Of a stretch of 64,000 nt of DNA, positions 47,270-62,530 are shown one piece after another. How positions within the stretch are numbered: position 1 is the stretch's first letter; each line of letters opens with the position of its first letter. The stretch is taken from assembly GCA_016793095.1 (NCBI GenBank), contig JAEUJQ010000050.1, positions 1-64,000 of the forward strand, in the 5' to 3' direction. The DNA comes from Myxococcaceae bacterium (GTDB lineage: Bacteria; Myxococcota; Myxococcia; Myxococcales; Myxococcaceae). The position numbers and the translations under genes are program-made. Below the pieces are notes generated by a model that ran no database searches, was not told where the DNA came from, and was given only the letters and a program-made list of their open reading frames with translations.

Positions 47270-49237
47270 TCACGGGGAGCAGTACCCGCTGGGCAGGCAG
47301 GGGCGCGCGCCGCCGTCGGGGAAGTCACGGCAGCTTCGGCCGGGCACGTCACAGCGGGACTCGCAGTAGCCCGTCGAGAGGATGCCGCCGTCATTCAGGA
47401 AGAGCTGCTCACAGACGTAGCCTGGCCGGCAGGTCGCCTGGCCCCCACGTGGCGAGGGGCACCCCTTGAAGCACCAGGCGGTCGTACTCGAGACGCCGAG
47501 ACAGATGCCGGCGTCCAGGTCCTCTGAAGCGTCCGACGTGCAGTCGTCATCGATCCGGCAGGTTCGCTGGCACTGGCCTCCCGGGTTGCCCGTGTACGCG
47601 AGGCCGCCGTCCGGGTTCACCTGGAAGCCGCCGTCAGCCGCGCTGAGGATTTCGGGCGAGCAGAAGCCGCCAGCGAAGGGGGCACCGGGCAGTCCACCGG
47701 GCGACCGGCACTCAGCGGTCGTCGTGCAGGCCGCGTGCAGCGTGGCGATGGTGTCGAGCGTCAGCGACGGATTGGCGAAGTCGGAAGGGAGGCAGGCCGT
47801 CAACCCTCCACCGACTCCGAAGCACGAGTACCCGGACCGACATGGGCTCGATGGGCCGCAGCCAGATGCGAAACAGCCGGTCTGTTCCTCCGAGTAGATA
47901 CGCGGCAAGGCGAGGCACACCGAGCTCATCGGACAGAAGCTCTGGGCGCTGCACCCCGTGATTGAGCAGTAGCCGCCCGAGTAGGTGATCGCGCCGTTCA
48001 GGTTCTGCTGCTTGCAGACTGCGTTCGGTCCGAGGCTCGCCTGGCAGAAGGCATCCGACAGGCAGGCAGAGCCCACGGTCGGGGGCGCGGCCACGCATCG
48101 GCCATTGCTGCAGAGGGGAGTCGCGCCAAAGCACGCGACGCACATCTGTGCGTTCTCGCCGCAGATGTTGTTGTTCTGTTGGCTCGTGCCGCGGAAGGCG
48201 CAGGAGCCATTGGGGAGCAGACAGCCGTCGCAGAGCATCGCGCCGCCGCCTCCAGTCCCACCACCAGCACCACCACCACCGGCGCTCCCGCCGCCCGGGC
48301 TCGTGCAACCGAAGCCGACGCAGAGTTGGTTGGTCGCCGAGCAGTCCGTGCAGGCGAGGCCGCCAAACCCACAGGAGGTGTTGTTGCCGTTGTTCGGCGG
48401 CTGCACGCACGTCCCTGCGGCGGTGCAGCACCCCGTGCAAGTCAAGGGTGAGCACCCAGCGGAGCCACCACCGGCCGAGCCACCGCCGGCCGAGCCACCA
48501 CCGGCCGAGCCACCACCGGCCGACCCACCAGCAGCCGAGCCACCACCGGCCGACCCACCAGCAGCCGAGCCACCACCGGCCGACCCACCACCGCCCGCGG
48601 AGCCACCAGCAGCCGAGCCACCAGCGGCCGAGCCACCAGCAGCCGAGCCACCAGCAGCCGAGCCACCAGCAGCCGAGCCACCAGCGGAGCCACCAGCCGT
48701 CGAACCACCGCCAGCCGATCCACCACCAGCCGAGCCACCAGCAGCGGTGCCACCAGCGGAGCCACCAGCCGTCGAACCACCGCCAGCCGATCCACCACCA
48801 GCCGAGCCACCAGCCGTGGAGCCACCACCAGCGGAGCCACCAGCCGTGGAGCCACCACCAACGGAGCCACCAGCCGTCGAACCACCGGCCGAGCCGCCGG
48901 CCGTCGAACCACCAGCCGTCGAACCACCAGCCGTCGAACCACCAGCCGTCGAGCCACCAGCCGTCGAACCACCAGCCGTCGAACCACCAGCCGTGGAGCC
49001 ACCCGCTGAGCCACCAGCCGTGGAGCCACCTCCTGCCGACCCTCCCGCAGCTCCGTCACACATGCACGCGCCGAAGGCGTCTCCGGCCGCCGAGCACACC
49101 TGCCGTCCAGAGCACCCACCGGGTCCGGTGCAGGCAACCGAGATGCCCGGCGTACACGCCGGCTTCGGCGTGGGTTGGCCACACGCGCTGATCACCCCAC
49201 TCACGACAAGGACTGGCACGACGCGAAGGAATCTCAT
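47270..49237 (-). CDS. Gly/Ser/Ala-linker lipoprotein with Cys-rich C-terminus
   Basis: A 655-residue protein. A lipobox (VISAC) ends at about Cys19. Two Cys-rich pieces frame a linker of about 200 residues of GGSTAGGS/AAGGSAGG repeats (about residues 60-260, bases 48455-49060). The rest (about 265-655) contains 40 or more cysteines in small modules (CTGCCTAAGTCVQPP, CGPSSPCRSGYSCFGVG, CRIDDDCTSD), as in myxobacterial surface proteins with repeated EGF-like or knot-like modules. A surface or fruiting-body role is plausible but not shown. ATG 49235-49237 gives the signal peptide. It shares its linker type with the gene at the left edge. Confidence 0.85.
   Translation of the reverse strand: MRFLRVVPVLVVSGVISACGQPTPKPACTPGISVACTGPGGCSGRQVCSAAGDAFGACMCDGAAGGSAGGGSTAGGSAGGSTAGGSTAGGSTAGGSTAGGSTAGGSTAGGSTAGGSAGGSTAGGSVGGGSTAGGSAGGGSTAGGSAGGGSAGGGSTAGGSAGGTAAGGSAGGGSAGGGSTAGGSAGGSAAGGSAAGGSAAGGSAAGGSAAGGSAGGGGSAGGGSAAGGSAGGGSAAGGSAGGGSAGGGSAGGGSAGGGSAGCSPLTCTGCCTAAGTCVQPPNNGNNTSCGFGGLACTDCSATNQLCVGFGCTSPGGGSAGGGGAGGGTGGGGAMLCDGCLLPNGSCAFRGTSQQNNNICGENAQMCVACFGATPLCSNGRCVAAPPTVGSACLSDAFCQASLGPNAVCKQQNLNGAITYSGGYCSITGCSAQSFCPMSSVCLALPRIYSEEQTGCFASGCGPSSPCRSGYSCFGVGGGLTACLPSDFANPSLTLDTIATLHAACTTTAECRSPGGLPGAPFAGGFCSPEILSAADGGFQVNPDGGLAYTGNPGGQCQRTCRIDDDCTSDASEDLDAGICLGVSSTTAWCFKGCPSPRGGQATCRPGYVCEQLFLNDGGILSTGYCESRCDVPGRSCRDFPDGGARPCLPSGYCSP
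48455..49060. repeat. Tandem repeat array coding for a GGSTAGGS/GGSAAGGS linker
   Basis: About 600 bp of 9-, 12- and 15-base units (CCACCGGCCGAG, CCAGCCGTCGAACCA and variants) in the middle of the lipoprotein gene. It is similar to the array at the left edge. Such arrays change length by slippage, so the linker likely differs between strains. Confidence 0.8.
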
Positions 49238-49295
49238 GAGGGCGCGAACCCTAGCGAAGGACCAGCGTGGCCTCCACTCGACGCGGGTCGGCCGG

Positions 49296-49937
49296 TTACC
49301 GGAACACGCGCGAGCCGATCTGCAGCTCGTCGACCCAGACGATCTCACACGCTCCCGCGCCCGTGTCGTCACGCACCACCGAGCTCGTCGCGAGTACGCC
49401 CCCTCCTTCGTCGAGGATCCGTACCAGCGACCCCTTGATGCGCACGACGTCGCCCTCGCGGATGAAGCGCACGGCGCGCGCGAGGTGCGTGCTGCCCTCG
49501 GCTGGGATGAGGTGGTTGTTCGCGATGTGCCGCGTGACGTCCAGACGTTCCTCCTCGGTCGGCATGCTGTCGGTGCGCCAGAAGAGGAAGCGGCCCATCT
49601 GCTGAAAGGTGAAGCGCTGCTTGAGCGCCTCGCGCGTGGGGCCCCAGATGGTACCCACGTCCACGTCGAAGAACTCGTTCGTCCACGCGACGTCGTACGC
49701 GGTCGCGCTCAACACCTCACCCGAGTGCTCATAGCGGTAGAGCTTCTCGATGACGAACGCGCGGCCGCCGCGGGTCACGGCCACCCGCTCCGGCGGCTCG
49801 ATGGGCTCCTGCACCGGCTCGAGCTCGAGCGACACCGGTTCCCGGGCCGGGCTGCTCCAGGCACGCGGCAGCACCACGCGCCACACCCCGACCCCGAGCG
49901 CTCCGACTCCCAGCAGCGCGAGCCACCACCTCGACAT
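49296..49937 (-). CDS. Membrane-anchored protein of unknown function
   Basis: A 213-residue protein with one N-terminal transmembrane helix (LALLGVGALGVGVWRVVL, about 6-24). Its periplasmic domain has RAFVIEKLYRYEHSGEVLSATAYDVAWTNEFFDVDVGTIWG (seen in parts), RFTFQQMGRFLFWR and ANNHLIPAEGSTHLARAVRFIREGDVVRIKG. The last segment is characteristic of a conserved bacterial family of unknown function. No catalytic set is visible. The gene is upstream of the linker lipoprotein and on the same strand. Confidence 0.78.
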   Translation of the reverse strand: MSRWWLALLGVGALGVGVWRVVLPRAWSSPAREPVSLELEPVQEPIEPPERVAVTRGGRAFVIEKLYRYEHSGEVLSATAYDVAWTNEFFDVDVGTIWGPTREALKQRFTFQQMGRFLFWRTDSMPTEEERLDVTRHIANNHLIPAEGSTHLARAVRFIREGDVVRIKGSLVRILDEGGGVLATSSVVRDDTGAGACEIVWVDELQIGSRVFR

Positions 49938-52111: not shown

Positions 52112-52366
52112 TCACGCCTTCGACTTGTTGCACAACTCGTCGCGGATGAAGGCGTGCAGCTTCGCCGCGACCGACTCGGGAATGGTGCGCTCGAGCGCCT
52201 TCCGGCAGACCGACGCCGTCGCGCGGTACGTCGCCAGGAAGTCCTCGCAGGGCTGGCAGTCGTGGAAGTGCGACTCGAGCTTCGCCCTCACGTCGTCAGG
52301 CAACTGCCCATCGACGTAGTCGACCAGCAACGCGAGACAGGACTGACAGGTTGAAGACTCGCTCAC
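52112..52366 (-). CDS. Zinc-finger (zf-HC2/ZAS) anti-sigma factor
   Basis: An 84-residue protein with the ZAS motif H-x3-C-x2-C (His33, Cys37, Cys40 in HFHDCQPC), plus Cys7 and Cys10 at the N-terminus as possible extra ligands. There is no membrane helix, so it is a soluble, redox- or zinc-sensitive type such as ChrR/RsrA-like. It lies 108 bp downstream of the ECF sigma gene, the usual order for sigma - anti-sigma pairs. Confidence 0.85.
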   Translation of the reverse strand: MSESSTCQSCLALLVDYVDGQLPDDVRAKLESHFHDCQPCEDFLATYRATASVCRKALERTIPESVAAKLHAFIRDELCNKSKA

Positions 52367-52474
52367 GACACCCCACCGACTGCACCGAGAATAGGTGCTT
52401 CATGTGAGGCGGGTAAGCCCGGTGCAACACGAAATGGACTGACTGAACGGTCGTGCAGCGCTCCACCGCCCAGC

Positions 52475-53149
52475 TCAGCCGGCGCGCTCCGCGTAGAACT
52501 GGTCGATGGCGGCGCGCATGGCGAGGCGGGCGCGGTGCAGCCGGCTCTTGATGGCCGCGAGCGAGTCGCCCGTCACCTGGGCGATCTCCTCGTACGACAG
52601 GCCCTCGACGTCGCGCAGCAGGAAGACCTGCCGGTGGTCCTCCGGCAGCTTCGCCGTCGCGCCGTCGATGGCCTTTCGGAGCTCGGCGTCCAGCGTCTGC
52701 TCCTCGGCGTCACGGCTCCAGTCCGCCACGTCGTCGATGAGGCTGCCCCGCTCGTTGAAGTTCGGCGCGCCGTCGGGCTCCTCCACGGTGAGGCTCACCT
52801 TCCGGTGCCGCAGCCGCATCAACGCGAAGTTGGCGGTGATGCGATAGACCCACGAGCCGAAGGCGGACTCTCCACGGAACTCGGGCAGCTTGCGGTAGGC
52901 GGCGAGGAAGGCCTCCTGGACGACCTCGGCGGCGTCGTCGTCGCTGCGCAGCATGCGCGAGGCCATCGCGAACACCTTCTGCTGGTGCCGCTCGACGAGC
53001 TGCTCGAAGGCCGACACGTCACCGGCCTGCGCGCGAACCAGCAGCACGCTGTCTTCCACGGTGGTCACGGCGCGCGCACCGTCCCCACTTCCGGTCGGAG
53101 CGTCAAGCGCCTTCGGCAGGGCCGCGGGGGTCGGCACGGACGGGACCAT
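52475..53149 (-). CDS. ECF sigma factor (RpoE-like)
   Basis: A 224-residue group-4 sigma factor. Region 2 (about residues 48-115) reads FEQLVERHQQKVFAMASRMLRSDDDAAEVVQEAFLAAYRKLPEFRGESAFGSWVYRIT (seen in parts), and region 4 (about 155-210) reads LPEDHRQVFLLRDVEGLSYEEIAQVTGDSLAAIKSRLHRAR. The N-terminal 30 residues are low-complexity. ATG 53147-53149 is used; an in-frame start 16 codons earlier exists. Its anti-sigma partner follows. Promoters it reads cannot be predicted without the family's -35/-10 alignment. Confidence 0.93.
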   Translation of the reverse strand: MVPSVPTPAALPKALDAPTGSGDGARAVTTVEDSVLLVRAQAGDVSAFEQLVERHQQKVFAMASRMLRSDDDAAEVVQEAFLAAYRKLPEFRGESAFGSWVYRITANFALMRLRHRKVSLTVEEPDGAPNFNERGSLIDDVADWSRDAEEQTLDAELRKAIDGATAKLPEDHRQVFLLRDVEGLSYEEIAQVTGDSLAAIKSRLHRARLAMRAAIDQFYAERAG

Positions 53150-53286
53150 CTCACTTTCCACGGCGCCGTGAAGGGCCCGGCTCCATGCCGTTCCCACGCC
53201 GACTCATGTCAGTCATTGCGTGGACTTGTCCGACGCTGGCGTGCATGCACAACGCCTTACGCCCGCCCGCATTTCGGAGTTTCTCC

Positions 53287-53838
53287 TCACGGCCCGCTGA
53301 CGTGGGTCGAGCTCGGGTCGAAGAACCTCAGGGGCTTCTTCGCCCAGGCCTTCGCGTACGCCACACCGATGCGGGCGCTCGCCCGGACGCTCGTCGGCCG
53401 AGTGCCTCTGGCGAGGAAGAGGGGCCGCGCGTCGAGGGGGAGACCGTCGAGCGCGCGGGTGATGCCGAGCAGCTTCGTGAGGCGGCCCGGCCCATCACCG
53501 CGCGCGTCGTCGGGCAGCCCGGCCAGCGGCTCGATGGCCCGGAGCAGCACCGCGGCCCCGTTGCCGGTCACCACGTTCACGCAGTGGTGCATGCCGTAGA
53601 CGAGGAAGACGTAGGCGTGCCCCGGCGGGCCGAACATCACCTCGGTGCGCGCGGTGCGGCCCTTCGACGAGTGACACGCGAGGTCGTGCGGCCCGAGGTA
53701 GGCCTCCGTCTCGACGATGCGCCCGGCCCGCAGCACGCCGCCCACCTCGTGCACCAGCACCTGGCCGAGCAGCGCTCTCGCCACCTCGACGGTGTCACGC
53801 GCAGCGAAGGAGCGGGGCAACGGCGTCAGGCGCTTCAC
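53287..53838 (-). CDS. 3-methyladenine DNA glycosylase (AAG/MPG family)
   Basis: A 183-residue base-excision repair enzyme that removes alkylated purines. The family order is complete: ARALLGQVLVHEVGG, RIVETEAYLGPHDLACHSSKGRTART, VMFGPPGHAYVFLVYGMHHCVNVV, and AVLLRAIEPL. The catalytic Glu is in the ETEAY segment, and the tyrosine that takes the place of the flipped base lies near YVFLVYGM. Length is typical of bacterial forms. It follows the SPFH gene by 6 bp. Confidence 0.94.
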   Translation of the reverse strand: MKRLTPLPRSFAARDTVEVARALLGQVLVHEVGGVLRAGRIVETEAYLGPHDLACHSSKGRTARTEVMFGPPGHAYVFLVYGMHHCVNVVTGNGAAVLLRAIEPLAGLPDDARGDGPGRLTKLLGITRALDGLPLDARPLFLARGTRPTSVRASARIGVAYAKAWAKKPLRFFDPSSTHVSGP

Positions 53839-53844
53839 CGCGAC

Positions 53845-55233
53845 TCACTTGCCGACGCCGTCGAGCGCCTTCACCACCGAGACGATCTGCGCCACCGCCC
53901 CCGCCAGCGACTGGCCGTCCACGGCGCCGCCGATGGTGACGGACTTGAGCTCGGCGGGCTTCGGCAGCTTCTCCACCACCTCGGGCAGCCGCTGAATCAC
54001 GCGGGCCTGCAGCGCAGCGGGCGAGATCTCGTTCTCGACCTTCTGTCGCGCGGCGAAGCCCTGCACCTCGAGGGCCGTGCGCTTGCTCAGCGCGTCGGCG
54101 CGGAGCAGGTCCACCACCGCCTCACCCTCGGCGACGAGCTTCAGGAGGGTGTGTTGGGCCGCCGCCTTCTCGACCGCCGCCTTCGCCTCTGAGGCGACGC
54201 GCGTCTTCTCGAGCTCGAGCTTCTGCATCGCCGTCTCGTGCTGGGCCAGGGCGAGCGTCACCGCGTCAGCCTGCTCCTTCTGGGCCCGCCGCGTCTTCTC
54301 GGTCTGCGTGCGGTCGTACGCCTCGGCCTCGTTGCGGGCTCGCACGACCGAGAGCTCGCGCTCGGTCTCCATGCGCGTCGTCTCCTGCGTCTTCTGGCTG
54401 ACGGCCTCGCGGGCGGTGACGACCTCCTCGGACTCCAGCTCGGCGAGGCGCGCGATGCGGGCGCGGTCGGCGCGGAAAGGCTTCTGCAGGTTCTCCCAGA
54501 GGCGCGAGCTGCTGACGACGGCCTCCTTGATCTGCACGGTCACGATGCGCAGGCCCAGGCCCTTGTCCGACCCGCCCTCGCCCTCGGCGACGTGGCGCAG
54601 GCGCGCGGTGAGCTCCTCGATGATGGGCTGCTTGTCGGACAGCACGTCGTCGATGCTCATCGTCGCGACCTTGTCCTTGATGGCGGCCTCGGCCTGCTCG
54701 CGCAGCTGCAGGTTGACGAGGCGCATCGGGTCCTCGGCGTCGCCGAAGTCCAGCTTGCGGTAGGCGGTGGCGAAGTCGTGGATGATCCACTGCACATAGC
54801 CCTGCACCAGCAGCCCCTGCAGCTCTTTGCAGATGCAGTGCGCGTTGATGAGGATGGTCTGCATCGCGCCGGGCACGGCGAGGTACGAGTCGGTGTACGG
54901 GTTGAACTTGAAGGACACGCCGAGGCCGAGGTGCAGTGGGTCGGTGGCGCCGCGCCGGGTGTGCACGACGTAGGCGTTGGGCGGAACGATGACGGTCTTC
55001 CAGCGCCACCAGCCGGTGATGCGCACCTCGACGGCGTTCGACTGGGTCGAGCTGCCGGCCACCGGGACGAACTCGGCGCCCCCGTCCGCCCGCCTCATCG
55101 CGCGCATCGCGGCTGGAGCGGCCGCCTGCGCTGCCGGCATCGCGCGCTTCGCCTTGAGGTCGCCCTCGAGGCGCTGCTGGTTGGCCACCACCTGGTCCAG
55201 GTACGAGTTCTTCTGCGGCTCGTTGCTGCTCAT
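53845..55233 (-). CDS. SPFH/band 7 domain protein
   Basis: A 462-residue SPFH protein. The SPFH core runs from about residue 70 to 250 (VRITGWWRWKTVIVPPNAYVVHTRRGATDP, VQWIIHDFATAYRKLDFGD, VKEAVVSSSRLWENLQKP region). The C-terminal part (about 250-400) is a long charged coiled coil (EAVSQKTQETTRMETERELSVVRARNEAEAYDRTQTEKTRRAQKE region), as in flotillin-like proteins. There is no N-terminal helix, so it attaches peripherally. It is in an operon with the TAXI-domain gene (24 bp upstream) and has a good ribosome binding site (AGGAGG). Confidence 0.88.
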   Translation of the reverse strand: MSSNEPQKNSYLDQVVANQQRLEGDLKAKRAMPAAQAAAPAAMRAMRRADGGAEFVPVAGSSTQSNAVEVRITGWWRWKTVIVPPNAYVVHTRRGATDPLHLGLGVSFKFNPYTDSYLAVPGAMQTILINAHCICKELQGLLVQGYVQWIIHDFATAYRKLDFGDAEDPMRLVNLQLREQAEAAIKDKVATMSIDDVLSDKQPIIEELTARLRHVAEGEGGSDKGLGLRIVTVQIKEAVVSSSRLWENLQKPFRADRARIARLAELESEEVVTAREAVSQKTQETTRMETERELSVVRARNEAEAYDRTQTEKTRRAQKEQADAVTLALAQHETAMQKLELEKTRVASEAKAAVEKAAAQHTLLKLVAEGEAVVDLLRADALSKRTALEVQGFAARQKVENEISPAALQARVIQRLPEVVEKLPKPAELKSVTIGGAVDGQSLAGAVAQIVSVVKALDGVGK

Positions 55234-55257
55234 GGGCTTCCTCCTGAAGGTCGCGGC

Positions 55258-56682
55258 TCAGTCGCGAATCGCCGACTGCAGCAGCTTGAGCTGAATGTTG
55301 AGCTTCAGCGCGTTGGTGCGCTCATGGATGACGTCGGACAGGTTGTTGAAGACGAGGGCGCTGTTCTCTTGCGTGTAGAAGCTGCTGATCTGCCCGATGA
55401 GGCCGAGCAGGTCGGACACCATCGACAGGTAGTGCATGTTCTCCCTGCGCAGGGCGTCGTCCTTGAGCGCCAGCACGTCCTTGTTCGATTGCAGCTGGCT
55501 CAGCACCGAGACGAGCGAGTTGAGCTCGTGGAACTGGCTGCGCCACGCGACCGCGTCGAGCCCCAGCAGCGCGAGGAAGGCGAGGCCGATGTTGATGAGG
55601 ATGCTGAAGAACGCGTCGACGCCCTGCAGGACCTCGCTCGTCGCCTCGGGCGACGGCGCCACCGCGGCGTCCGAGAGGTTGCGCACCGGCTGGAGGAGCC
55701 GCGTGGCCTGCGCGAGCAGCCGCGGCGTCAGCCCGTCGCGCGCCACGAGGTACGTCGAGACGCTCCACGTCTGGAAGGGCTGGGCGGGCAGCTGCGGCCG
55801 CTGTGACAGCCAGCCCGGCTCGAGGGTGACGCGGTCGAGGTAGCCGAGCCGCCGGGAGCGCGCGCCCAGCGGCAGGTCGGCCAGCAGGTAGCCCGCCTGC
55901 GCGAGCCGCGAGACGCCGCGCATCGTCTTCTCGTCCGACGGGTCCTTCACCACGAAGACGGCGTCGACGTCGGGTGGAATGGCATCGTCGGTGCTGGTGA
56001 GCGCGCTCCAGTCGTGGCGCACCACCGGCATGCCCTGCTGACCGAGCAACCCCAGCACGTCGAGCAGCACCGAGTGGCTGCCCTCGCCTTCCGTGGACGT
56101 CAGCACCACGCGCGCGTCGAGCAGCGTCGGGATGCCGGGCTTGAGGAACAGCAGCGCCACCTCACGGCTGGGCAGCTCGGCGCGGTGGAGAATGGCGGGA
56201 ACGGGGATGCCGCCCTGCACGAAGGCGAGGTCCACCTGCCCCGTCGCCACGTGCTTCGCGGCCTCTCGGCTGCCTGGCACCTCCACCACGTCGATGGCGA
56301 GGCGAGGGTCGGCCTTGAGCAGGTCCTTCAGCTCGGCGGCGTCGCGGTCGGGCAGCGCGAGGCTCAGCGTCGAGACGCGGAAGAAGGTCGTGTACGTCCA
56401 CCCCACGAGGGCCACCAGGGCGACCGCGAGGAACACGACGGGCAGCCGATGCAGGCTGAGGGGCCGCTGCATCTTCTCGGCGACCTGCTTCGCGTTGCGG
56501 GCGGCCTGCGCGATGGACTCGGAGGCGCGCGCGAGGCCGTCGTGGGTCGGCAGCTCGGTCTTCACCCGCTCCGCGAGCCGCGCCGCGGTGTCGATGAGCG
56601 GCTGAATCTCGAGGCGGGCGACGGTGGGGGCGGAGCGGGCCACGCCGACTTCAAAGCACGAACGCCGGGGCTCGTTCCTCAA
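55258..56682 (-). CDS. TAXI-type periplasmic-binding protein fused to two membrane helices and a coiled coil
   Basis: A 474-residue protein. Residues about 79-97 form a first transmembrane helix (LHRLPVVFLAVALVALVGWTY). Residues about 105-340 resemble a TAXI (TRAP-associated extracytoplasmic) solute-binding domain (LKADPRLAIDVVEVPGSREAAKHVATGQVDLAFVQGG in parts, and VFVVKDPSDE). A second helix lies at about 356-378. The C-terminal 95 residues are helical and cytoplasmic (SLVSVLSQLQSNKDVLALKDDALRRENM). This is a sensor-like topology rather than a transporter. It is the partner of the SPFH gene. The N-terminal start (56682) is provisional. Confidence 0.8.
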   Translation of the reverse strand: MRNEPRRSCFEVGVARSAPTVARLEIQPLIDTAARLAERVKTELPTHDGLARASESIAQAARNAKQVAEKMQRPLSLHRLPVVFLAVALVALVGWTYTTFFRVSTLSLALPDRDAAELKDLLKADPRLAIDVVEVPGSREAAKHVATGQVDLAFVQGGIPVPAILHRAELPSREVALLFLKPGIPTLLDARVVLTSTEGEGSHSVLLDVLGLLGQQGMPVVRHDWSALTSTDDAIPPDVDAVFVVKDPSDEKTMRGVSRLAQAGYLLADLPLGARSRRLGYLDRVTLEPGWLSQRPQLPAQPFQTWSVSTYLVARDGLTPRLLAQATRLLQPVRNLSDAAVAPSPEATSEVLQGVDAFFSILINIGLAFLALLGLDAVAWRSQFHELNSLVSVLSQLQSNKDVLALKDDALRRENMHYLSMVSDLLGLIGQISSFYTQENSALVFNNLSDVIHERTNALKLNIQLKLLQSAIRD

Positions 56683-58633: not shown

Positions 58634-58772
58634 GAGGCACACCCTGTCCCACGTGGCGCTGGTCCGCAAACCCGTCAACGCCTCGCCGTTGCTGATCAGC
58701 CAGCTGGACCGACGCCCACATGCACCCACTGACCTGTTCCTTCCGCGGAATCGTGTCGAAGACCGTTACGCC

Positions 58773-59936
58773 ATGGCAGCAGCGGAGCCCATCCTCGGCA
58801 TCGACCTCGGCACGACCTTCTCCACCGCCTGCGTGGTGATGGACGGGCGCTTCCACTATGCGCTCGATAACCGGGGCGACTCCTGCATTCCGAGCGTGGT
58901 GCACTTCCCGAAGGCCGGCGCGGTGCTGGTGGGACACGAGGCCGAGAAGCTGCGCACGACCGACCCGGTGAACACCATCGCCGGCATCAAGCGCGTCATC
59001 GCGCGGCCCATCGACAGCCCAGCGGCCCGGGTCCTCGACTCCGCCTCGGCCTTCAAGCTCAAGGGTGTCGGCAGCTCCGAGGTGAAGGTCATCACGCGCG
59101 GCGGCGAGTTCAGCGCGAGCCAGGTCGCGAGCTTCATCGTGCGGCACCTCAAGGAGCGCGCCGAGCACCGCTTCGGCCGGAGCATGACGAAGTGCTTCAT
59201 GACCGTGCCGGTGGCGGCGGGCCAGGAAGTGCGTGACGCGATGGTGCGCATAGGCCGCATGGCGGGCCTCGAGGTGCTGCGCATCCTGTCCGAGCCGGTG
59301 GCCGGCGCCCTCGCGCGGGGCCTCGCCGGCGCGGCGGCCACCGACAAGCCCTCGCTCGTCTTCGACTTTGGCGGCGGCACGCTCGACACCACCATCGTGC
59401 AGCGGCAGGGCGGGCGCATCAGCGTGCACGCGGTGGGCGGCGACGACTGCCTCGGCGGCAACGACTTCGACCTCGCGTTCGCGCGCTTCGTCGCCAACCA
59501 CATCTGGGGCCTCGCGGGGAACGACGTGACGAAGGACGCGCTGCTCTTCGACCGCATCCAACGGCAGTGCGAGCTGGTGAAGCGCGCGCTCTCGCTCAAG
59601 CCCGAGTCCCGCTTCTTCGTGCCCGACGCGGTGGGCGCGGCCGGGCAGCGGCGGCCCCTCGAGACGACGGTGAAGCGCGAGCAGCTCTACCTGCCGTGGA
59701 AGGAGCTGGTGGACCGCTCCCTCGCCGTCACGGCGCAGACGGTGGTGGACGCGGGCCTCAAGCCGAAGGACCTCGGCAACGTGATGCTCATCGGCGGCAC
59801 CACCTTCGTGCCACAGGTCCGGGAAGCCGTGGCGAGGACGCTGCCAGTCACCATCGACCTCGAGAACGACCCGCAGACGGCGGTGGCGCGCGGCGCGGCC
59901 CTGCTGGGCGCGATGCCGCACCTGCTGCTCGACTGA
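58773..59936 (+). CDS. Hsp70-family protein reduced to the ATPase domain
   Basis: A 387-residue protein with a complete Hsp70 nucleotide-binding domain: phosphate 1 GIDLGTTFSTACVV (about 10-23), phosphate 2 FDFGGGTLDTTIV (about 198-210), connect region and adenosine motif LIGGTTFVPQVRE (about 340-352). It stops where the substrate-binding domain should begin, and lacks the interdomain linker with DVTP. So it cannot act as a DnaK chaperone; FtsA/MreB-like or signalling roles are possible. Similar short forms occur in myxobacteria. ATG 58773; the frame is open upstream but begins in non-conserved sequence. Confidence 0.9.
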   Translation: MAAAEPILGIDLGTTFSTACVVMDGRFHYALDNRGDSCIPSVVHFPKAGAVLVGHEAEKLRTTDPVNTIAGIKRVIARPIDSPAARVLDSASAFKLKGVGSSEVKVITRGGEFSASQVASFIVRHLKERAEHRFGRSMTKCFMTVPVAAGQEVRDAMVRIGRMAGLEVLRILSEPVAGALARGLAGAAATDKPSLVFDFGGGTLDTTIVQRQGGRISVHAVGGDDCLGGNDFDLAFARFVANHIWGLAGNDVTKDALLFDRIQRQCELVKRALSLKPESRFFVPDAVGAAGQRRPLETTVKREQLYLPWKELVDRSLAVTAQTVVDAGLKPKDLGNVMLIGGTTFVPQVREAVARTLPVTIDLENDPQTAVARGAALLGAMPHLLLD

Positions 59937-60650
59937 GCCGCGGCGCAGCGCAGGTCGTGGCGAGAGCACGTTCAGCCACGGCCGCGGTGGTCCGCGTCGT
60001 TCTCGCCACCGCCGCGGTAGCCTGCGTCGTTCTCGCCGCATCACCCGGTTCGCCCGGCCCAGCGTAATCGCGCCGAGAACACGTTCAGCCACGCCTGCGG
60101 TGGTCCGCGTCGTTCTCGCCGCATCACCCGCTTCGCCCGGCCCAGCGTAATCGCGCCGAGAACACGTTCAGCCACGCCTGCGGTGGTCCGCGTTCTCGCC
60201 GCATCACCCGGTTCGCCCGGCGCAGCGCAATCGCGCCGAGAACACGTTCAGCCACGCCTGCGGTGGTCCGCGTCGTTCTCGCCGCATCACCCGGTTCGCC
60301 CGGCGCAGCGTAATCGCGCCGAGAACACGTTCAGCCACGCCTGCGGTAGCCTGCGGCGTTCTCGCCGCATCACCCGGTTCGCCCGGCGCAATCGCGCCGA
60401 GAACACGTTCAGCCACGCCTGCGGTGGTCCGCGTCGTTCTCGCCGCATCACCCGCTTCGCCCGGCCCAGCGTAATCGCGCCGAGAACACGTTCAGCCACC
60501 GCCGCGGTAGCCTGCGTCGTTCTCGCCGCATCACCCGGTTCGCCCGGCGCAGCGCAATCGCGCCGAGAGCACGTTCAGCCACCGCCGCGCCGTGTGCCCC
60601 GCCGACCGGCGTGAGTGCACCTGCGCCCCGTGTCCGGCTACAACCCGCCC
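59937..60650. repeat. Intergenic array of about 83-bp hairpin repeats
   Basis: The marker CGAGAACACGTTCAGCCACG (CGAGAGC... at the ends) begins at 59961, 60074, 60157, 60237, 60320, 60398, 60481 and 60564. Spacing is 83 bp in most cases, 78 and 80 in two, and 113 at the first. Each unit carries GTTCTCG and, about 40 bases later, CGAGAAC, which are perfect 7-base inverted repeats. The array fills the 714-bp gap between the Hsp70-like and CsgG-like genes. I see no gene in it. Confidence 0.88.
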
Positions 60651-61841
60651 ATGCTCCGCGCGCTGACCGGCCTCCTGCTCGCCTCCTCCGTCGCCGTCGC
60701 CGACCCGAAGCCGCTGCAGGTGGCGGTCGCCTACTTCGACAACAACTCCGGAGACCCAGCGCTCGACCCGCTCGCGCGCGGCCTCGCCGACATGCTCATC
60801 ACCGACCTGTCGAACGTGTCGGCGCTGCAGTTGGTGGAGCGCGAGAAGCTCAACCTCGCGCTCGACGAGCTCAAGCTGTCGAAGTCGAAGTTCATCGACC
60901 CGAAGAACGCGCTCAAGCTGGGGAAGGGCCTGTCGGCGCGGTACCTGCTCGTGGGCGGCTACGTCGTGCAGGCCGACGCGATGCGCCTCGACGCGCGGCT
61001 GTTCGACGTGCCGGCCAGCAAGGTGCTCTTCAGCGAGAAGGTCGAGGGCAAGAAGGAGGAGTTCTTCGCGCTCGAGAAGGAGCTGGTGGACCTGCTGGTG
61101 AAGGCGCTCGACGTGAAGCTGCAGCTCTCTGAGAAATCGAAGCTGCGCTCGAACGCCACCGAGAGCTTCGACGCGTTCGCGAAGTACGCGCAGGGCCTCT
61201 CGGCGAAGGACGCGGGCGACGACGCGAAGGCTCGCGCGCTCTTCGAGGCGGCCCTGGCGGCAGACCCGAACTACCGCGCCGCGAAGAACGCCACCGAGCG
61301 CCTCGCCGTCATCTTCAAGCGCGACGACGCGGCGAAGACGGCCAGCGCCGACGCGCAGCGACAGGCCCTCGACCCGAAGGCGAAGGACTTCCCCGAGAAG
61401 GTGTCGGCGCTGCTCCTGTCACTGCAGGAAGGAAAGACGGAGGAGCAGCGGCGCAAGGTCGAGCTGCTCACCTGGCTCGCCGAGAACGACCTCACCCCAC
61501 CGGCGGTGAACGGGCTGGCCGCGGTGGCCATGGGCGGGCTACAGATCGTCTATCGCCACACCGAGGACCCGACGCAGTGGGAGAACATTCCCCTCGCGTG
61601 CGAGTACTTCATCTCGCGCTACCCGAAGGAGGACTACCCGAAGACGTACTGCCGCGGGCTCTTGCAGTCGCTGCGCTCGGAGACGACGCGCAACCGCGCC
61701 GAGGCACAGCGCGAGTGGGACGAGGAACGCGACGAAGACCTCAAGCGTCTCGACCCGGAGGACTGGCGCATCTCTCTCCACAAGAACGAGGCCGCCATGC
61801 GCAAGCTCATCGCGTTGTACGCGTCGAAGGTGAAGAAATGA
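60651..61841 (+). CDS. CsgG/HfaB-like domain protein
   Basis: A 396-residue exported protein. A signal peptide (MLRALTGLLLASSVAVA) is followed by a CsgG-like domain (VAVAYFDNNSGDPALDPLARGLADMLITDLSNVSALQLVEREKL in parts, LLVGGYVVQADAMRLDARLFDV), about residues 25-190. A tetratricopeptide-like helical part follows (ALFEAALAADPNYRAAKNATERLAVIF). The CsgG domain in other proteins forms outer-membrane export channels or binds lipoproteins; without a lipobox here a periplasmic role is more likely. It overlaps the paralogue downstream by 4 bp (ATGA). Confidence 0.82.
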   Translation: MLRALTGLLLASSVAVADPKPLQVAVAYFDNNSGDPALDPLARGLADMLITDLSNVSALQLVEREKLNLALDELKLSKSKFIDPKNALKLGKGLSARYLLVGGYVVQADAMRLDARLFDVPASKVLFSEKVEGKKEEFFALEKELVDLLVKALDVKLQLSEKSKLRSNATESFDAFAKYAQGLSAKDAGDDAKARALFEAALAADPNYRAAKNATERLAVIFKRDDAAKTASADAQRQALDPKAKDFPEKVSALLLSLQEGKTEEQRRKVELLTWLAENDLTPPAVNGLAAVAMGGLQIVYRHTEDPTQWENIPLACEYFISRYPKEDYPKTYCRGLLQSLRSETTRNRAEAQREWDEERDEDLKRLDPEDWRISLHKNEAAMRKLIALYASKVKK

Positions 61842-62530
61842 GAGCCACGCTCCTGCTGTCGCTGTTGCTCGCGCCCGTCGCCCTCGCCGCCGAGCCACCC
61901 ACCGTCGCCATCCTCTACTTCGACTACGACGGCGCGGACCCCGAGCTGGTGCCCCTGCGCAAGGGCCTGGCGCAGATGCTCATCACCGACCTCGCCGGGC
62001 GCGAGGGCTACAAGGTGGTGGAGCGCGCGCGCCTGCAGGAGGTGCTCGCCGAGCTGAACCTGGGCAAGACCCAGAAGCTCGACGCGGCGGCGGCGCTCAA
62101 GGTGGGCAAGCTGCTGCAGGCGAAGTACCTGGTGGCCGGCGGCTACTTCTCGATGCTGGGCAGCCTGCGCCTCGACGCGCGCGTCATCGAGGTCGAGACG
62201 TCGAACACGCTCAAGGGGCTGGGCGCGACCGGCAAACCCGACGACTTCTTCGCGCTCGAGCAGAAGCTCGCGGCCGACGTCGATGGCGTCATCCTCGCCG
62301 CTGCCGCGAAGGCCACGTCGCAGCCGCCGCCGAAGCCGACGCCGCCCACCGCCATCGCGAAGTCCGCGAAGGGCAAAGTGCCGCTCAAGGCCGTCACCGC
62401 GCTGTCGAAGGCGCTCGACGCGAAGGACGAGAAGGACGCCGCGAAGGCGAAGGAGCAGCTCGACGTGCTGGTGAAGGCGAACCCGGACTTCCTGCTCGCG
62501 CGCCTCGAGCTGGCCGACCTCTCGAAGTGA
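61838..62530 (+). CDS. CsgG-like domain protein, paralogue of the previous gene
   Basis: A 230-residue protein with a signal peptide (MRATLLLSLLLAPVALA) and a CsgG-like domain (VAILYFDYDGADPELVPLRKGLAQMLITDLAGREGYKVVERARLQEVL in parts; GGYFSMLGSLRLDARVIEVET). The C-terminal 70 residues are helical (ALSKALDAKDEKDAAKAKEQLDVL), with a single TPR-like unit. It is made in coupling with the larger paralogue. Function of such paired CsgG-like proteins is unknown. Confidence 0.82.
   Translation: MRATLLLSLLLAPVALAAEPPTVAILYFDYDGADPELVPLRKGLAQMLITDLAGREGYKVVERARLQEVLAELNLGKTQKLDAAAALKVGKLLQAKYLVAGGYFSMLGSLRLDARVIEVETSNTLKGLGATGKPDDFFALEQKLAADVDGVILAAAAKATSQPPPKPTPPTAIAKSAKGKVPLKAVTALSKALDAKDEKDAAKAKEQLDVLVKANPDFLLARLELADLSK

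Follow-up and report, generated by a model that had tools for sequence, protein, structure and literature searches.

TAXI solute-binding proteins are described in one account (PMC12344293) as secreted or lipid-anchored proteins, usually comprising 300-350 amino acids and mostly serving TRAP transporters. In VcGluP, a solved representative, residues S75 and Q93 were reported to bind glutamate and Y45 to be critical as well (PMC11574862). As regards SPFH proteins, prokaryotic families are listed in a survey as often partnered by NfeD, several of them lacking it (PMC2636767), and for the soluble SPFH protein YdjI of Bacillus subtilis a dependence on the adjacently encoded membrane proteins YdjG/YdjH has been reported (PMC8581546). 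Here we analyzed a 64,000-nucleotide stretch of DNA of a Myxococcaceae bacterium (the window), in which a gene for a TAXI-type protein with two membrane helices (55258 to 56643, minus strand) is followed by a gene for an SPFH/Band_7 protein (53845 to 55233, minus strand). A sequence-only reading of the window had suggested that the two products form a membrane-microdomain sensor. On balance we favor, with moderate confidence, the explanation that they are independent, an orphan TAXI receptor and a stand-alone SPFH scaffold, whose genes became neighbors by a lineage-specific insertion.

The window proteins show partial similarity to each of these systems. With VcGluP (8S4J) and TT1099 (1US4) the TAXI-type protein shares a domain that profile comparison shows to be homologous by way of intermediate sequences and that keeps the ligand-binding serine and glutamine; in addition it carries two membrane helices and a tail, and it has no evident TRAP partner and lacks the critical tyrosine. 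BP0403 of Bordetella pertussis likewise combines a TAXI domain, no TRAP permease and an added helical part; it is described, however, as a lipoprotein with a C-terminal TAXI domain that is coupled to gltS (PMC12344293), whereas the window protein possesses two membrane helices. Like YdjI, the window SPFH protein contains an SPFH domain and no N-terminal membrane segment. In contrast to YdjI, which is reported to be encoded together with membrane partners and PspA, its gene shows no family-wide partner.

The TAXI-type and the SPFH protein

Both open reading frames (ORFs) are genuine genes. The TAXI ORF was first called from 55258 to 56682 (474 amino acids, TTG start at 56682). An alignment of the homologues favored the GTG at 56643, which yields a protein of 461 amino acids. 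According to Kyte-Doolittle hydropathy, this protein has membrane helices at residues 62-80 (TM1) and 344-362 (TM2), which separate an N-terminal part (approximately residues 1-61), a TAXI-like domain (approximately 87-338) and a C-terminal tail (363-461). Apart from the corrected start, the sequence-only description of this protein as a TAXI-like domain with two membrane helices and a helical tail was supported by homology.

A match to the Pfam model PF16868 (TAXI/NMT1_3) above the curated cut-off was not obtained for this family, and the own genome gave no match at all; six of ten family members matched the model weakly (best E 0.006). Relatedness to TAXI proteins emerged from the comparison of two alignments, A1 with 10 close sequences of the family and A3 with six two-helix proteins of the same order (L038, L039, L041, L042, L043 and L044), all six of which exceed the PF16868 cut-off. 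The two profiles, both of which are shallow (effective number of sequences about 2), matched with a probability of 97.9% across columns 78-407 of the 466 columns of A1. For the TAXI part alone, hhalign gave 97.9%, E 3.5e-13 and a score of 91.6, while 20 column shuffles reached scores of 9.0-25.4 (best 4.8%, E 0.0084), and a score of 15.7 was obtained after reversal of the profile. A3 in turn matched the solved TAXI proteins 8u79 (E 9.7e-15), 1us4 (E 1.4e-14) and 8s4j (E 3.1e-13). The VcGluP residues S75/Q93 align with S85/Q105 of A3, which are invariant in all six sequences, and with S125/Q143 of the window protein, which do not vary among the 10 family sequences; this mapping uses an offset of 28 that presumably separates the numbering of the chain from that of the paper. 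Altogether, the comparisons support the assignment of this gene product as a distant TAXI-type protein. Other searches did not contribute to it. A direct sequence search of the Protein Data Bank (PDB) yielded one chance match, the A1 profile matched solely designed helical proteins of the PDB at residues 11-57, and in NCBIfam there was only a chance match to an anti-sigma model below the cut-off (E 0.089). Neither this protein nor the SPFH protein was matched in PHROGs or PADLOC at E 0.01.

Conservation within the family is unevenly distributed. Across 10 homologues, 15 of 23 columns are invariant in TM2 and 46 of 93 in the tail (55261 to 55557, minus strand); the proportions are lower for the TAXI domain (77 of 248), TM1 (7 of 20) and the N-terminal part (18 of 59). 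From the predicted topology, the TAXI domain should be periplasmic and the helical tail cytoplasmic. The tail was found in nine of 142 genomes of the order, once in each and always at the end of this gene; the family alignment contains it in one further genome (G136), which may lie outside the 142 drawn. PDB sequences similar to the tail were not detected up to E 5. The A3 proteins have the same order of helix, TAXI domain, helix and tail. Their tails, however, are not detectably related to that of the window protein (0.3% probability), and their neighboring genes are largely different, a few loose families (c5, c32) being shared at other positions. Binding-protein domains located between membrane helices are described as common sensor domains of receptors (PMC9602780). 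The strong conservation of TM2 and the tail would be expected if, in a putative receptor, the output is of greater importance than the ligand.

The SPFH gene encodes 462 amino acids. Its product has been called flotillin-like, which holds true for the SPFH/Band_7 domain (PF01145, E 1.3e-14, 55.1 bits, cut-off 23.6) and fails for two other features: the flotillin model PF15975 scored only 22.6 bits on the C-terminal part (cut-off 27), and an N-terminal membrane segment as in bacterial FloA/FloT was not found, the maximum hydropathy over 19 residues being 0.36 within the first 118 residues. The best-related PDB entry was HflC (E 1.3e-6), and HflC was also the only NCBIfam match, below the cut-off.

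Gene neighborhoods and origin of the adjacency

The TAXI-type and SPFH genes are separated by 24 nucleotides, and AGGAGG precedes the SPFH start. Six nucleotides past the SPFH stop, a methylpurine-DNA glycosylase (MPG) gene starts (53287 to 53838, minus strand; PF02245, E 1.2e-53). Judged by the spacing, the TAXI-type and SPFH genes may be co-transcribed. To assess the postulated pair, its conservation in other genomes was examined. Neither gene was found beside the other in any of them, an outcome that the sequence-only reading had itself named as refuting the pair. None of the 11 other close TAXI loci (10 genomes) and of seven distant ones contained an SPFH match at E 1e-3, some of these loci (L033, L035, L036, L037) being short or ending in or near the TAXI gene. 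The same SPFH query picks up paralogues elsewhere at E 1e-10 to 1e-22. Conversely, at the 29 other loci of SPFH orthologues no TAXI match was obtained with A1 up to E 1, and A3 gave one stray match (E 0.59); here, three contigs extend less than 0.2 kb on one side (L075, L136, L140) and one about 1.5 kb (L085). Matches of a repeat-rich ORF of the window (47270-49372) were left out of the neighborhood comparisons.

At all four readable loci of other genomes of the genus (L027-L030), the TAXI stop is followed by the glycosylase frame within about 10 nucleotides, so that the junction is uninterrupted and the segment 53839 to 55257 of the window (minus strand), i.e., the SPFH gene with the 24 nucleotides before and the six after it, is absent. 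In a fifth genome (G133) the TAXI gene is cut off by the end of its contig and another contig begins with the glycosylase gene; a sixth (G134, 85% complete) yielded neither of the two.

Of 145 genomes searched in the order, 23 gave TAXI-type matches, which fall into 11 close ones (53-80% identity to the window protein, three genera, own genome included) and 12 distant ones (23-30%). When 195 genomes of the phylum were searched with the profile, 53 matched, among them the 11 with the close gene (E at most 1e-129); the other 42 had E values of 3.9e-10 to 3.4e-4 and covered part of the TAXI domain. One same-genus assembly contains a second, partial copy of the family (L037, G131:C57), possibly a contamination or a broken duplicate. 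SPFH orthologues (at least 59% identity) occur in 30 of the 145 order genomes, own genome included, and 54 further ones gave SPFH matches at about 27-34% only. Among the 11 candidates scored in each of the six other genomes of the genus, paralogues at 29-30% were found and no orthologue, though five of these genomes carry the TAXI gene. Both genes are present together in four of the 11 TAXI-bearing genomes (Fisher test over the order, one-sided p 0.17); within the family, taken as 96 genomes, the two-sided p value was 0.74. With genomes treated as unrelated in these tests, the co-occurrence of SPFH and TAXI is not distinguishable from chance.

Other candidates for a conserved partner were also rejected. 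The glycosylase gene was seen to adjoin the TAXI gene within the genus only and lies on a separate contig in five of five genomes of the two other genera that carry the close TAXI gene. Outside the genus the TAXI neighbors differ, a DUF455 gene being present at three loci of one genus and a HEAT-repeat gene at two. For the SPFH gene, no neighbor family was shared by more than seven of 21 loci, a set made up of the window and 20 of the other 29, and the two commonest families (c1, c2) occupy varying positions. Six genes upstream of SPFH orthologues were scanned, three of which had no Pfam match and three different ones.

In comparison with the two nearest SPFH orthologues, the window shows DNA similarity that spans the ORF and breaks off no more than 13 bases from either end of it. 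The SPFH gene has a G+C content at third codon positions (GC3) of 0.963, compared to 0.92-0.96 in four neighboring genes. Hence, the base composition does not point to a recent acquisition from a foreign source, and the gene may have been relocated within the lineage or transferred long ago. The data are most simply explained if the SPFH gene was inserted at the TAXI-glycosylase junction in this lineage, the empty junction being observed and the direction of the event deduced. An SPFH gene that was ancestral at this site and lost from the other lineages of the genus appears rather improbable to us. Its native base composition would agree with this, and so would the identities to two genomes of the nearest genus, where the SPFH protein (73-74%) somewhat exceeds the glycosylase (65-67%; TAXI 54%), so that an old presence is possible. 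In that genus, however, the SPFH and TAXI genes reside on different contigs, no TAXI match lies beside SPFH (one contig has only 3.2 kb), and a single insertion is a simpler assumption than a gene removed cleanly from this junction in each of four lineages.

Proposed function and alternatives

If the two proteins act independently, as we favor, the TAXI-type protein would expose a Venus-flytrap TAXI domain between its two membrane helices for the binding of a ligand in the periplasm. The ligand may be small and is probably carboxylate- or amino-acid-like, because the glutamate-binding serine and glutamine of VcGluP are conserved. Domain closure might be relayed via TM2 to the cytoplasmic tail, which would contact a partner. 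The protein probably feeds no TRAP permease. The SPFH protein would be a stand-alone, probably peripheral membrane scaffold, which occurs in varied genomic contexts and has no fixed partner; its gene may share a transcript with the TAXI and glycosylase genes without a functional partnership. Among the titles found in the open-licence literature on TAXI/TRAP, SPFH/NfeD and Myxococcus, none named a TAXI receptor with two membrane helices or an SPFH-TAXI pair.

Several observations weigh against this interpretation. The 24-nucleotide gap together with the good ribosome-binding site makes co-expression possible in this genome, and a young functional link between SPFH and TAXI in one lineage is possible. 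The search for SPFH orthologues scored 11 first-look candidates per genome, and the same-genus genomes are few drafts of 85-100% completeness (own genome 98.65%). As to the TAXI assignment, the window protein alone gave no Pfam match. AlphaFold2 models built from three sequences (the window protein plus L025 and L026, whose contigs are those of L028 and L027) reached a mean predicted local distance difference test (pLDDT) score of only 39.9 and 42.3 and were of too low quality for use. With the latter model, Foldseek returned nothing at E <= 0.001; an unrelated phosphatase ranked first, and the TAXI-related entries 9ibp and 4ddd came second and fourth, a ranking to which we attach no weight. 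Moreover, Y45 of VcGluP has no counterpart, the respective stretch being the invariant LALPDRDA, which renders the ligand class uncertain.

We also considered that the TAXI-type protein is a membrane-tethered solute-binding subunit of a transporter encoded elsewhere, either TRAP or GltS. As a rule, TAXI domains work together with transporters, a TAXI-GltS system that lacks TRAP genes has been reported (PMC12344293), and the own genome possesses one GltS and one DctM. However, this only DctM found lies on another contig, in agreement with the earlier statement that there is no TRAP permease nearby, and belongs to a DctP-DctQ-DctM-TAtT cluster with separate DctP and DctQ genes, whereas TAXI-TRAP systems have been reported with fused DctQM proteins (PMC5812351). 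A fused DctQM with a binding protein was not found in this genome. GltS was detected in only three of the 11 genomes carrying this TAXI family, and the most conserved parts, TM2 and the tail, are not obviously needed by a delivery subunit. A TRAP or GltS partner is therefore unlikely.

We give very little credence to the idea that the inserted, anchorless SPFH protein was captured by the TAXI tail in this lineage, which would have created a young ligand-sensing receptor coupled to a ring of membrane scaffold, the tail having another partner elsewhere in the family. A membrane-microdomain sensor common to both proteins, in which the TAXI tail would hold the anchorless SPFH protein as YdjG/YdjH hold YdjI, is equally improbable: beyond the same-strand adjacency and the lack of an N-terminal anchor, the only support found is the analogy to YdjI as a soluble SPFH protein needing neighboring membrane partners (PMC8581546), and it is countered by the adjacency in 0 of 11 other close TAXI loci and 0 of 29 other SPFH loci (several on short contigs), by the failure to find the orthologue in the six other genomes of the genus and by a co-occurrence not distinguishable from chance.

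Further features of the window and significance

Downstream of the glycosylase gene, two genes are located at 52112-53197, one of them sigma-factor-like and the other short and containing cysteines (both named by eye). Their order is kept in L027, L028 and L030, and in L029 they lie a few kb farther away. In the window an Hsp70-like gene is present at a distance of less than 6 kb from TAXI, as is also the case in L031, a locus of another genus. The Hsp70-family ORF of the window (58644-59933) matches only positions 1-373 of the 599 profile positions, so that its product probably comprises the ATPase domain and lacks the part that binds substrates. Just downstream of it, at 60005-60582, there is a tandem array with a unit of 83 bp in 7.1 copies (91% match). 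The overlapping plus-strand ORFs 60615-61841 and 61577-62530 cluster by BLAST, the first one matching CsgG (PF03783, E 2e-12). The repeat-rich ORF 47270-49372 contains a long Gly-Ser-Ala-rich repeat (period of 15 bp, 38.9 copies, 48457-49030); its C-terminal part is rich in cysteine, and 47273-49195 matched no Pfam model.

The locus illustrates how one same-strand insertion can imitate an operon, and a tempting but unsupported gene pair is removed. What is left is a small family of myxobacterial proteins whose TAXI binding domain, commonly part of a transporter, has apparently been built into a membrane receptor with a highly conserved, presumably cytoplasmic tail.

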